Below, one piece after another: positions 20,609-24,448 of a stretch of 64,000 bases of DNA. The position numbers were made by a program, and so were the translations under genes. This DNA is from Desulfosudis oleivorans. Its GTDB lineage: Bacteria > Desulfobacterota > Desulfobacteria > Desulfobacterales > SURF-7. The number at the start of each line of letters is the position of its first letter. Position 1 is the stretch's first letter. The notes below the pieces were generated by a model. It did no database searches. It had not been told where the DNA came from and worked only from the letters and a program-made list of their open reading frames with translations. The stretch is from assembly GCA_020723305.1 (NCBI GenBank), contig DYJC01000006.1, positions 62,001-126,000 on the forward strand. The letters are read 5' to 3'.

Positions 20609-21253
20609 TCATCCTGATTTTACTGAGCTTTGGCGCAGACCGTACCAAAGCAGAAAATTGATCCCGGAGCATATGATAATCAACAAAGCGGTTGTAATCT
20701 TGAAAAAAATTCTAGGCATAATATAATAGGAAAAATCAAACCTGGTATTCAGCCATAACTTATTTTTAAACAGGATAGGATGAAAAACATCTCTCCAGAA
20801 GACACCGAATACCGGTAGAATTGTTAATAAGGAGAGAATGATAATCATATTTACCAGGGCAAAAGAAGACACTGTCCTGGCATGAAAACAGAGAATCAGG
20901 CCGAGAAGCGAAAAAACAAACAAAATAAACATTTTATCCGCCATAAGCCTTACTTCAAGAAGATGTGCCCCTTCTTTACCAGTCCAGAATACGGAAGTTA
21001 ACTCTCCCTGATGGCGGAAAAATCGACTCAGCTCTTGTATTCCCTTATCAATTCTTTCATATCCCATTTTTTCACAACGAGAATGCCAGTTACAACTGAT
21101 TCTGTACCACCCCGGAAGGTATAGAATCAGTGAAAACGGTAGGTACACTGTAAAGTAAAGAAGGGATAAAAATAAGATAATCCGGTTTATGATTCTAAAT
21201 AGGGAATTTATTATATCCTTATGGTTAAACCTTTTCTCCACAGATCTTTCCAA
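20609..21253 (-). CDS. DUF1461 / TIGR01906 integral membrane protein
   Basis: 214 residues, with about four membrane spans (residues ~20-48, ~108-128, ~132-155, ~185-205). 'TGKEGAHLLEVRLM' before the second span and 'DVFHPILFKNKLW' before the last match the conserved E-x-x-HL-x-DV and F-H-x-x-F-x-x-x-W patterns that I associate with DUF1461. Function of the family is unknown. It stands alone between the activase and a repeat fragment; no clear ribosome site was identified. Confidence 0.6.
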   Translation of the reverse strand: MERSVEKRFNHKDIINSLFRIINRIILFLSLLYFTVYLPFSLILYLPGWYRISCNWHSRCEKMGYERIDKGIQELSRFFRHQGELTSVFWTGKEGAHLLEVRLMADKMFILFVFSLLGLILCFHARTVSSFALVNMIIILSLLTILPVFGVFWRDVFHPILFKNKLWLNTRFDFSYYIMPRIFFKITTALLIIICSGINFLLWYGLRQSSVKSG

Positions 21254-21290
21254 TCAAGCTTTTGATGTTCCAAAAAAAAACAAATTCTGA

Positions 21291-21320
21291 GAGCCAATTT
21301 CAAAACGTACCTATCCTATT
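21291..21320. repeat. partial short inverted-repeat element, copy B
   Basis: Starts with the intact terminal repeat GAGCCAATTTCAAAACG and then degenerates; AAAGCGTGATGA repeated at about 21346 and 21364 recalls the AAAGCGTCACAC of full copies. No right-hand terminal repeat is present, so this is a decayed or truncated copy. Confidence 0.6.
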
Positions 21321-21473
21321 TGGCTATCGTTGTATTGTCAATTTTAAAGCGTGATGATGTTTAAAGCGTGATGAAAAAGAATGAGTTGCAAACAGAGATA
21401 ATAAAAAAACACAATGTGGATATAATGGAGTGATTATTCTGTAAAGTCAGGGTGGAATGACACAGGAGTGGAA

Positions 21474-22364
21474 TTAATGTTTGCTTTCTTCGGTCTTTTT
21501 TTCATTTTCCCCCTTTGTTTCAGCTTGAACTTCTTCATAGTGACTGAAAAATGCCTCAACACTTTTCCATTGAGATGTGACTGTGATGTTCTGGATTGAG
21601 ATGCTTTCAATCTGACCTTTTGCATAGGGATTAATGATCTGTAAAAGCATATCTCTAACGGCGCCCAGTTTGTCCATTGTATTGATTTCAGAATAAGTCA
21701 GAGAACTTAAATGAAAAATCATCGCTTCTTTCACCTTGGGATGTAATTTGGGCAAAGGAGCAACCACTTTTTCTTCACCTGGAGCAACCTCCTTTTCCTC
21801 ACTTGGCTTTAAGATAAGCTTTAATTCAATACAGAGATACCGTTCTTTGCTAACAGGCTTTTCCTTACTTAAATTCACGACAAAAGGCTTTACGGGCAAA
21901 ACGATTGCAGGTCTCTCTTTTCCTTCCGCCTGCTGCTTTATTATCTTTGCCCAGATTTCAATGGTACCATCGGGTTTCTTTATCTGCATCTTCGATTCAG
22001 TGATCTCGATAATCGTAAAAGAGATTGTCTCCCCGACAATCCATTCGTTTCCCACCTTTGCTTGCGTCGCCGTCACATTCAGTACGCCGCCCACAACTAC
22101 CCATGTACCTGAAAATTCTTCGTCCTCTGCTTTAGCCTTGGCTGATTGACCGCCTTCCTTTCGAACCTTTGATTGCCATGTTCCGTCTGCCAAGAATGTC
22201 AAGTCCTTATGTCCTTTGTCCTTTTTCATACGCCAAGTACCGATAAAACGGCCATCAGCAGGAGTATCCTCTTTACTGCATCCATAACCACCGGAAAAAA
22301 ACAAAACGCAGATAAAAAAATACAATATTTTTATACATATGGCAGAAGTTTTTGGATTCCTCAT
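21474..22364 (-). CDS. lipoprotein with lipocalin-like and FliL-like domains
   Basis: 296 residues. A hydrophobic signal segment ends in 'FFSGGYGC', a loose lipobox, so the mature protein is probably lipid-anchored. Residues ~38-145 hold a GTW...DGTW pattern ('FIGTWRMKKD', 'FLADGTWQSKV', 'FSGTWVVVGG') like lipocalin-type DUF domains. Residues ~160-265 read like FliL: 'PFVVNLSKEK', 'RYLCIELKLIL', 'LHPKVKEAMIFHLSSLTYSE', 'MDKLGAVRDMLLQIINPYA' and 'ISIQNITV'. The tail is highly charged. FliL normally sits at the flagellar motor as an inner-membrane protein; no flagellar gene is near and the anchor here is different, so a separate role is likely. Confidence 0.6.
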   Translation of the reverse strand: MRNPKTSAICIKILYFFICVLFFSGGYGCSKEDTPADGRFIGTWRMKKDKGHKDLTFLADGTWQSKVRKEGGQSAKAKAEDEEFSGTWVVVGGVLNVTATQAKVGNEWIVGETISFTIIEITESKMQIKKPDGTIEIWAKIIKQQAEGKERPAIVLPVKPFVVNLSKEKPVSKERYLCIELKLILKPSEEKEVAPGEEKVVAPLPKLHPKVKEAMIFHLSSLTYSEINTMDKLGAVRDMLLQIINPYAKGQIESISIQNITVTSQWKSVEAFFSHYEEVQAETKGENEKKTEESKH

Positions 22365-22667
22365 CTTACATCCTCAATACACGATGAATGGATGTCCGGT
22401 TAATGCAATACTATGGAATCAGGTGAATGGTTGTCAGTAGAGTTATCCCAAAATAAGGAACCTGGCTGAATAATCACAGGTAGACCGGAAATGTTGATGA
22501 AAAGATCTATGGTAATCTAAAGGTCATGATCTGTTTTCCGGTGTCAGTGATGTGAATATGGCATTATTTTTGGGATTTGAAAGCAGTTTATCATCTCATT
22601 ACAATATGGTCAACAAACTTCAAAACAAGATTTGAATACAATTGAAGATACTTAAAGTGAAACGCAT
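22365..22667. other. intergenic region without recognised gene
   Basis: About 300 bases between the lipoprotein start and the terminator of the HesB-like gene. No credible reading frame, RNA motif or repeat was seen. It must hold the promoter of the lipoprotein gene, but no convincing -35/-10 pair stands out. Confidence 0.5.
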
Positions 22668-22709
22668 AAAAAAGGAACAATATCCATTTTGAGTTATGAA
22701 TATTGTTCC
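22668..22709 (-). terminator. rho-independent terminator of the HesB-like selenoprotein gene
   Basis: A perfect 10-bp stem (GGAACAATAT / ATATTGTTCC, 22674-22709) followed on the minus strand by TTTTTT. It lies about 30 bases beyond the stop codon at 22740. Confidence 0.8.
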
Positions 22710-22739
22710 CATGAATTACATTGAATGAATCGAATATTT

Positions 22740-23048
22740 CTATCCGCAGGTGCCGGTTCCGCAACTCTTACACCCTGCACCAAGAACGATGCTGGAGGAG
22801 ATGCTGAATCCCATTTCCTTAAAATCCACTTTGATTGGGGTCGCTTTTTTTAAAAAATCTTTATCAACAAGATATTGAAATCCATCCACATCATAAACAT
22901 TATCTGAATCTTTTGGCTCATCCAGAGCCATAGCAAGAGATGGGCCGCCTCACCCACCTTCATTCAAAAAGATTCGAATCGGCATCACTGTTTTATCCTT
23001 GAAATAGTCAGCGATCTGTTTTGTCGCCATTTCAGTAACTTCAACCAT
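22740..23048 (-). CDS. HesB/IscA-like selenoprotein (in-frame UGA read as selenocysteine)
   Basis: 102 residues if UGA at 22950-22952 is read through. The part before it is 'MVEVTEMATKQIADYF' to 'IRIFLNEGG', then U33, then 'GGPSLAMALDEPKDSD' and so on to the Cys-rich end 'GAGCKSCGTGTCG'. The UGA falls exactly where HesB/IscA proteins have the first conserved Cys (GG-C-G...), and the family pattern continues without break on the far side. AGGAGG lies 7 bases before ATG 23048, a strong promoter is at 23126-23154 and a terminator follows, so the whole unit looks functional. HesB-like selenoproteins are a known bacterial selenoprotein family. Role: probably iron or Fe-S/thiol redox chemistry, unproven. 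Standard gene callers would start at ATG 22931 and lose the first 39 codons. Confidence 0.85.
22915..22946 (-). promoter_or_regulatory. candidate bacterial SECIS element
   Basis: Starting 4 bases after the UGA, GGC-C-CATC pairs with GATG-A-GCC (7 pairs, one C/A mismatch) around a 16-base loop containing GCTATGGC. Position directly downstream of UGA and within the coding region is as expected for the SelB-binding hairpin; the exact fold needs a program. Confidence 0.5.
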
Positions 23049-23076
23049 TGAATTTCCTCCTGTATAAAAAATATCA

Positions 23077-23104
23077 GTTACAGAAGGATGGAACCATCTG
23101 TAAC
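23077..23104 (-). promoter_or_regulatory. leader hairpin or operator before the HesB-like gene
   Basis: GTTACAGA and TCTGTAAC form an 8-bp inverted repeat around 12 bases; the middle also holds GATGGTTCCATC. It lies between the promoter and the ribosome site, so it could be an operator or an RNA hairpin in the leader. Confidence 0.45.
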
Positions 23105-23125
23105 CACTGATTACTCCTGTCGATA

Positions 23126-23154
23126 ATTTTAGTCATTGTTATTGATTTTGTCAA
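23126..23154 (-). promoter_or_regulatory. sigma-70-type promoter of the HesB-like selenoprotein gene
   Basis: On the minus strand TTGACA, 17 bases, TAAAAT: a perfect -35, a five-of-six -10 and ideal spacing. Transcription would start near 23119, 70 bases before the ATG. Confidence 0.7.
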
Positions 23155-23224
23155 TGATCAAAAGGAATAAAAGGATTTCAAAGACTCTCTTAATTTACTC
23201 TGCCAAACGAGCAGGAAATGGCTG

Positions 23225-23758
23225 TTAACCATTATTGCTGTGTGATGAAAAATAATCAGTGTAAACATCAAAGTATTCACGGGAAAATAAAATAAAAATA
23301 ACCTGCTTTATAGAAGGATGGTCTGTTAGAAACCGGATGGTTGTATTGACGGCAATTTCACATGCCTCCCGGATCGGATAACCATAAACACCGCAACTGA
23401 TTGCAGGGAATGCGATTGTTTTGATATTGTTTTCAATTGCAAGCCTCAAGCTGTTTTCATAACAATTTTGCAGCAGTTCAGGGCTGTTTCCACTTTTTCT
23501 ATAAACCGGCCCAACTGTATGAATAATGTATTTTGCTTTCAGTTCATAACCTTTTGTAATCCTGGCCTCGCCTGTAGGGCAACCACCAATTTTTCTGCAT
23601 TCGGACAAAAGTTCCGGACCTGCTTTTCGATGTATTGCCCCATCAACACCGCCGCCCCCTAAGAGAGATGTATTGGCTGCATTTACAATTGCATCAACCG
23701 TAAGGTCCGTTATATCACCTTGTTGAATTGCAATCCGGTTTAAAAGTTCTGGAATCAT
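23225..23758 (-). CDS. macro-domain protein, ADP-ribose / O-acetyl-ADP-ribose hydrolase
   Basis: 177 residues, one macro domain of the YmdB/MacroD type: 'IQQGDITDLTVDAIVNAANTSLLGGGGVDGAIHRKAG' in overlapping form (key pieces 'GDITDL', 'VDAIVNAAN', 'GGGGVDGAIH'), then 'CPTGEARITKGYELKA', 'IIHTVGPVY' and 'AFPAISCGVYGYP'. The NAAN and GGGVDGAI loops that bind ADP-ribose are intact, so deacylation of O-acetyl-ADP-ribose or removal of ADP-ribose from proteins is plausible. It follows the FmdB-like gene by 15 bases on the same strand, presumably one transcript. Confidence 0.9.
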   Translation of the reverse strand: MIPELLNRIAIQQGDITDLTVDAIVNAANTSLLGGGGVDGAIHRKAGPELLSECRKIGGCPTGEARITKGYELKAKYIIHTVGPVYRKSGNSPELLQNCYENSLRLAIENNIKTIAFPAISCGVYGYPIREACEIAVNTTIRFLTDHPSIKQVIFILFSREYFDVYTDYFSSHSNNG

Positions 23759-23773
23759 CGCTTTCTCCTGGCC

Positions 23774-24268
23774 TTATAAGTCATACAGGGTATCATCTTT
23801 TATGGGTGCTTTCCGGATGTGTGATTGAAGACCGCCTTTTTTGCCGGACAAGACAAATGGGTCCTCGCCTTCCAGCAAATCTCCCATTTCAGCTTCTATT
23901 GTTTCCGGATCATCCCCTTTTTCCATTCGGGCCAATGCTTCCTCCATACCGGATCCCAGTTCCATCCCTGTCATTTCCGTCAGTTTTCTCATCAGGTTTG
24001 CCGCCTGTTTTGGATCATTCTCATTGATATTCTCAGCTTCTCTGGCCAGCATCTGCATTGCTTTTTCCATCCTGCTTTCATCCACAGGAAGATCATCCAT
24101 ACCCTTTTCTTCACCTGCATTTCCGGTAAATGAAAAAACAGACATCTGCCGTTTCAATGTTGTTTTTTTACATTTGGGGCAAACTGGTTTTTTGTTTGTA
24201 TTGACTGACCTTGAAAAAAAATTGAATATTGTATTGCATTCCTCGCAGAAAAATTCATATATCGGCAT
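23774..24268 (-). CDS. FmdB-family zinc ribbon protein
   Basis: 164 residues. N-terminal FmdB-type zinc ribbon: 'MPIYEFFCEECNTIFNFF' and 'KPVCPKCKKTTLKRQ', with the two CxxC pairs. The rest (residues ~55-164) is an acidic, Met/Glu-rich helical tail ('ARMEKGDDPETIEAEMGDLL') ending in 'DDTLYDL'. Function of such proteins is not known beyond likely metal binding and regulation. Start at ATG 24268, with GAGGA 7 bases upstream, is preferred to the TTG two codons earlier. Confidence 0.75.
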   Translation of the reverse strand: MPIYEFFCEECNTIFNFFSRSVNTNKKPVCPKCKKTTLKRQMSVFSFTGNAGEEKGMDDLPVDESRMEKAMQMLAREAENINENDPKQAANLMRKLTEMTGMELGSGMEEALARMEKGDDPETIEAEMGDLLEGEDPFVLSGKKGGLQSHIRKAPIKDDTLYDL

Positions 24269-24448
24269 TCTCAATTCCTCATCAATAGGCTAAAGGTTCT
24301 TGATTTTATTCTCTCCTAACCAGGAGATACCATATCGAAAATGCTGATAATTGTAAAGAAAACCTTTGTTGACTTGCGATTTGACTTTTGGTATTGACGG
24401 CCATCAAAATAATTATGAAATAACCAAATTGGAAAAGGAAAAAATGAA

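Follow-up and report, generated by a model that had tools for sequence, protein, structure and literature searches.

A HesB-like gene with an in-frame UGA in Desulfosudis oleivorans, very probably encoding a SECIS-dependent selenoprotein of the IscA fold

In the 64,000-nt stretch of DNA from Desulfosudis oleivorans which was analysed here and is called the window, a HesB-like gene was identified on the minus strand that is interrupted by a single UGA codon. The gene is assigned with high confidence as a SECIS-dependent selenoprotein of the HesB-like (IscA/HesB Se) family. A sequence-only reading had proposed a selenoprotein with UGA at the position of the catalytic Cys, and this proposal is supported by the family match, the Sec machinery of the genome, the selection acting on the gene and the conservation of a hairpin following the UGA. 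The assignment as a SECIS-directed selenoprotein, rather than a pseudogene or a sequencing error, was made because the codons forming the hairpin are frozen in genes with UGA and not in related genes with Cys. The gene adds a member to a known selenoprotein family: HesB-like selenoproteins had been catalogued by 2006 in PMC1794560, Table 3 of which names Desulfovibrio, Syntrophobacter and Geobacter among others, so that the family was rightly described as an established one, and its function in Methanococcus maripaludis was still called unclear in a 2024 account (PMC11097638).

The reading frame begins with ATG at 23048-23046 and ends with TAG at 22742-22740 of the minus strand, and the TGA at 22952-22950 is its sole interruption between 23048 and 22740. 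The layout of 102 codons with one TGA between ATG and TAG had been given with exact coordinates (Table 1). In the mechanical list of open reading frames, the same frame holds just a 63-codon fragment downstream of the TGA, and naive calling therefore truncates the gene, as had been foreseen. The promoter, ribosome site and terminator which had been described as bracketing the unit were all located at their claimed places, the promoter and the terminator as consensus matches only; in the region 22500-23300, five promoter-like sites were counted versus a mean of 2.8 in shuffled sequences, and one terminator-like site versus 0.4. A GGAG 5' of the start was present in 37 of 38 loci (own locus included; counted by eye), the exception being locus L047, with AGGAAA in its place.

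Table 1. Features of the HesB-like gene and its surroundings, in positions of the window
Feature	Position	Strand	Basis
Promoter-like (sigma-70-like) site, TTGACA-17-TAAAAT, 11/12 consensus match	23126..23154	-	Consensus scan only
Shine-Dalgarno AGGAGG	23056..23061	-	Sequence; 7 nt 5' of ATG
Predicted hesB-like selenoprotein gene	22740..23048	-	102 codons + TAG; open when TGA is read as Sec
In-frame UGA, codon 33, predicted Sec in GG-U-GGP	22950..22952	-	Recurrence of TGA at the site in relatives
Predicted apical hairpin of bacterial SECIS, 6-bp stem, loop UGGAU at 22924-22920	22914..22930	-	Conservation in UGA genes
Codons of the Cys-rich tail, C93-x2-C96-x4-C101	22746..22772	-	Conservation in 22 aligned sequences
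Terminator-like hairpin with T run	22673..22710	-	Consensus scan only

For family scoring, Sec was entered as Cys. The protein matched NF038090 (IscA_HesB_Se, IscA/HesB family protein) with 121.1 bits (E 2e-35) over profile positions 1-100 of 101, well above the curated cut-off of 85, which bears out the earlier HesB/IscA-like family call. The score for TIGR01911 (HesB_rel_seleno) was 33.4 bits and below that family's own cut-off of 66.35, so that the gene was assigned to the NF038090 branch. The cut-offs of the canonical equivalogs were also missed, with 31.2 of 150.6 bits for IscA, 25 of 136.2 for SufA and 25.3 of 117 for ErpA, and the Pfam A-type family PF01521 stayed just under its gathering threshold (24.5 versus 26.3 bits). 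Sec33 aligns with the Cys of GGCSG in Aquifex AQ_1857 (PDB 1nwb), a protein with the IscA fold, and with the Cys of natural Cys relatives, which places the TGA at the first HesB/IscA Cys as had been proposed. The alignment, which also served as input for the fold prediction, comprised 22 sequences, namely the window and 21 plus-strand relatives out of 38 loci; in it, C96 and C101 never vary, and C93 is conserved in at least 90%. The resulting AlphaFold2 model has a mean pLDDT of 79.4, with residues 92-102 below 50. The five best Foldseek matches of the model are all IscA or SufA, and comparison to IscA 1r94 gave an E of 1.1e-6 and a TM score of 0.70, revealing the IscA fold.

The genome containing the window has a size of 5.4 Mb and is 97.9% complete. 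A threshold of E 0.001 was too loose for the selenocysteine machinery, giving selB, selD and tRNA-Sec matches in 14/14 control genomes; because such weaker matches are common in the controls, only those above the cut-offs were counted. By this measure, all four components whose presence was to be checked were found: selA (623 bits, cut-off 268, exceeded in one of 14 control genomes), selB (382 bits, cut-off 242, two of 14), selD (376 bits, cut-off 125, two of 14) and tRNA-Sec (73.3 bits, cut-off 47, five of 14). The last is located outside the window, and ARAGORN identified no tRNA anywhere in the 64,000 nt. The selD gene (L018 from 1486, contig C41 of G000) itself contains an in-frame TGA near its start, M-T-E-I-P-L-T-E-K-V-R-A-S-G-U-A-A-K, on account of which the selenophosphate synthetase of the same genome is probably also a selenoprotein. 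Since selA is present in 169 of the 170 class genomes that are at least 95% complete, the Sec machinery cannot separate genomes with the hesB-like gene from those without it. In the host's taxonomic family, selA is present in 12/12 genomes.

The gene with its in-frame TGA was identified in all 12 searched genomes of the host's taxonomic family, which together gave 13 matches, 12 of them with TGA; one genome has a second, uninterrupted copy. Within the class, NF038090 matched above its cut-off in 324/389 genomes and at E 0.001 in 334/389, while the control genomes gave eight of 14 at E 0.001 and 0/14 above the cut-off. Near-complete class genomes contained a match at E 0.001 in 185 of 201 cases and none in the other 16, so that the gene is not indispensable in the class. 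Across 80 named loci, the best of 110 relatives, the residue site is occupied by UGA in 70 and by Cys in 10, with nothing else occurring. The ratio is not a frequency estimate, because only the best loci were kept and one search pattern of two was written with Cys at this position. Strains of Desulfosarcina, Desulfoluna and Desulfonema are among the relatives. Both forms exist in Desulfoluna limicola ASN36 (L116 with Sec, L120 with Cys). An uninterrupted (Cys) and a TGA-containing copy (L044:1323-1643 and contig C403 of G239, 1781-2071) lie close to each other on one strand of a single contig and form a natural Sec/Cys pair. A tree of 100 rows, 14 of them with Cys, forces at least five changes of the Sec/Cys label, the tree being weak, with few columns, many unresolved forks and a bootstrap that has not settled. 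It was used solely to conclude that Sec and Cys have been swapped repeatedly in this family; for HesB-like proteins two Sec-to-Cys events are given in Table 1 of PMC1794560.

Protein-level selection acts on both sides of the TGA. Downstream of it, dN/dS was 0.03-0.09 in five of six comparisons with near relatives (the sixth not being computable), values which are rough in the three of these five with dS above 1; upstream, dN/dS was 0-0.08 in four of six near-relative comparisons.

The hairpin which had been reported to follow the UGA was found at 22930-22914; it begins 19 nt 3' of the TGA, and its loop is 25 nt from the UGA. Codon freezing was calculated as the fraction of identical codons over pairs sharing the amino acid, with the expectation taken from pooled codon usage. 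In 34 UGA genes, the values for Ala+8 and Leu+9 were 1.0 and 1.0 versus 0.27 and 0.23 expected, and for Asp+10 and Glu+11 0.89 each versus 0.58 and 0.52. The hairpin is not the only place with such a signal: Lys+13 (0.81 versus 0.48) and Gly+1 (0.57 versus 0.29) were raised to a similar extent; a few other codons (+31, +34) exceeded expectation by about 0.2, and most were near it. Pooling of both sets gave 84 distinct UGA sequences, of which 82 use GCT for Ala+8 and 83 use CTG for Leu+9, whereas the 13 distinct Cys relatives have GCT at +8 in two cases and CTG at +9 in seven. A stem with at least five of its six pairs can be formed by 81/84 distinct UGA genes versus 0/13 Cys genes. These sequences are related and their counts are not independent events, with the Cys relatives, which lie inside the same tree, providing a useful control. 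In register, 90.3% of the pairing cells are paired; shifting the 3' arm by 1-3 columns lowers this to 56.3% or less. Because the stem is nearly invariant, it shows next to no two-sided covariation. The codon signature GCT CTG GAT/C GAG after the UGA separates the sampled UGA genes from their Cys relatives.

The significance of the hairpin rests on this conservation, since the folding energy of the window's own copy was unremarkable compared to synonymous recodings (z -0.66, p 0.24). For the 48-nt region, the mean z was -1.11 over 34 UGA genes, with p<0.05 in six of them, and +0.12 over four Cys genes; the folding-energy test was too weak, and codon freezing together with the contrast of UGA and Cys genes was used instead. 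A scan of the window with Rfam gave 0 families, so that no library model stands behind the SECIS. As in other bacterial selenoprotein genes, a conserved stem-loop with a G in the loop is present 3' of the UGA.

A lone stop within a frame that is open elsewhere is also what a pseudogene or a sequencing or assembly error usually looks like; a nonsense mutation of recent origin, or a TGC/TGT wrongly called as TGA, would then be followed by a relic frame. This explanation is highly improbable, because the same TGA recurs in 12/12 genomes of the taxonomic family and at 70 of the 80 named loci kept as the best out of 110, because dN/dS remains at 0.03-0.09 downstream of it and because UGA genes, unlike Cys genes, have frozen codons in the hairpin. 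The sequence-only reading had named a genome without Sec machinery, a TGA produced by error and homologues lacking both Cys and Sec as observations that would speak against it; none of them came true, the recurrence in 12/12 genomes making an error untenable. Equally little credence is given to a UGA acting as a true stop between two polypeptides. The 63-codon open reading frame does begin with an ATG, at 22931 (residue 40), but this start would fall within the strand that the model of the IscA fold places at residues 37-42, no Shine-Dalgarno sequence was seen ahead of it by eye, and the Cys relatives encode one unbroken protein.

Some bacterial lineages recode UGA, and the codon could be read as another residue, such as Trp, or by general readthrough without selenocysteine. 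However, the non-UGA relatives of both sets (10 and four) have Cys at the site and never Trp, and the genome contains a dedicated Sec machinery. In addition, UGA is the terminator of 11/34 and 32/70 UGA genes in the two sets, which share some genomes, showing that UGA is not generally recoded; decoding as another residue is therefore very unlikely.

For the preferred selenoprotein reading, it is inferred from the sequences that Sec is actually inserted at codon 33 in D. oleivorans. SelB and tRNA-Sec would decode the UGA as selenocysteine, guided by the mRNA hairpin with its loop 25 nt from the UGA. The product is predicted to be a protein of IscA-like fold, in which Sec replaces the first Cys of the motif and which ends in a flexible tail with three Cys residues.

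Upstream of the gene, genes for a macro-domain and a zinc-ribbon protein (Pfam Macro, Zn_ribbon_8) are located at 23225-24274 on the minus strand. They recur upstream in 24 and 27, respectively, of 81 loci; these are the window and 80 others, the best of 110 relatives, and many of them sit on short contigs. Downstream, the most frequent three families were seen at 16, 16 and 15 of the 81 loci, and no functional partner is claimed because none of them is found beside the window's gene. At 20609-22364 on the same strand, the genes that follow gave Pfam matches to Lit (lipoprotein intramolecular transacylase, 36 bits) and to FliL (41 bits) downstream of the hesB-like gene; the product of the FliL-matching gene begins with what resembles a signal peptide, which ends in GC, and might be a lipoprotein.

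The Fe-S assembly set of the genome appears reduced, as far as searches with PF01521, SUFBD_core and NifU_N show. PF01521 had no match at E 0.001 (nine of 14 control genomes match), SUFBD_core for SufB/D had none (14/14 controls match), and NifU_N identified one NifU-type scaffold protein. In the class, PF01521 matches 14/389 genomes, and ten of these 14 matches contain an in-frame TGA and look like the same selenoprotein family. In the 97.9% complete genome, these sequence searches detected no A-type-like protein other than the selenoprotein, which suggests, without proving, a role as a carrier. The selenoprotein is tentatively considered, at slightly less than an even chance, as a putative A-type-carrier-like protein that may bind a metal or an Fe-S cluster via Sec33 and the Cys residues of the tail. 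Against this stand the PF01521 score below the cut-off, the non-canonical CxxC-x4-C tail, the lack of an NF038090 match in 16 of 201 near-complete class genomes and the tolerance of M. maripaludis to disruption of its HesB-like gene, as described in PMC11097638.

Sharing the selenoprotein reading, a selenol-thiol oxidoreductase is the chief alternative function, in which Sec33 would form a selenenylsulfide with a tail Cys instead of carrying a cluster or metal. This is possible, if on the doubtful side. It is favoured by the conserved Cys tail and by the statement in a 2026 review that most uncharacterised selenoproteins are probably redox proteins (PMC13188914); the fold is, however, that of IscA/SufA, and the motif is UxGP and not UxxC or CxxU. 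A Sec-Cys redox pair had been suggested from the Cys-rich C-terminus. The invariance of C96 and C101 and the conservation of C93 are compatible with such a pair and go no further, and the model does not help to place it, with the pLDDT of the tail at residues 92-102 being too low. A further-reaching proposal, regarded as unlikely, starts from the missing PF01521 and SufB/D matches and the one NifU-type scaffold and holds that the selenoprotein took the place of the canonical A-type carrier in Desulfobacteraceae-type bacteria. Sec33 and the tail Cys residues would then make up a carrier site with selenium as a ligand of an Fe-S cluster or of iron, and the Cys paralogues known from some relatives would be a selenium-sparing backup; if this were true, Fe-S delivery would be dependent on selenium. 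The question of function has become more testable, with the family common in the class (324/389), matches to canonical A-type carriers rare there and a codon signature at hand that tells the sampled UGA genes from their Cys relatives.

Compared to the canonical A-type carriers IscA, SufA and ErpA, the window's protein shares the fold, its top Foldseek matches including 1r94, 1x0g, 1s98 and 2d2a, at an identity of 19-24% among the top six. Canonical A-type proteins have a CxC tail. They also have Cys at the first motif site, where the window's protein has Sec in combination with its CxxC-x4-C tail. For HesB-like selenoproteins, a UxGP motif is described in PMC13188914, with which the GG-U-GGP of the window's protein agrees. 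Another HesB-like selenoprotein is MMJJ_08070 of M. maripaludis, which is archaeal and is likened here by its published description only (PMC11097638). According to that description, a disruption mutant still fixes nitrogen (quoted there as an unpublished observation), and the protein was identified as a selenoprotein by mutagenesis and 75Se labelling.
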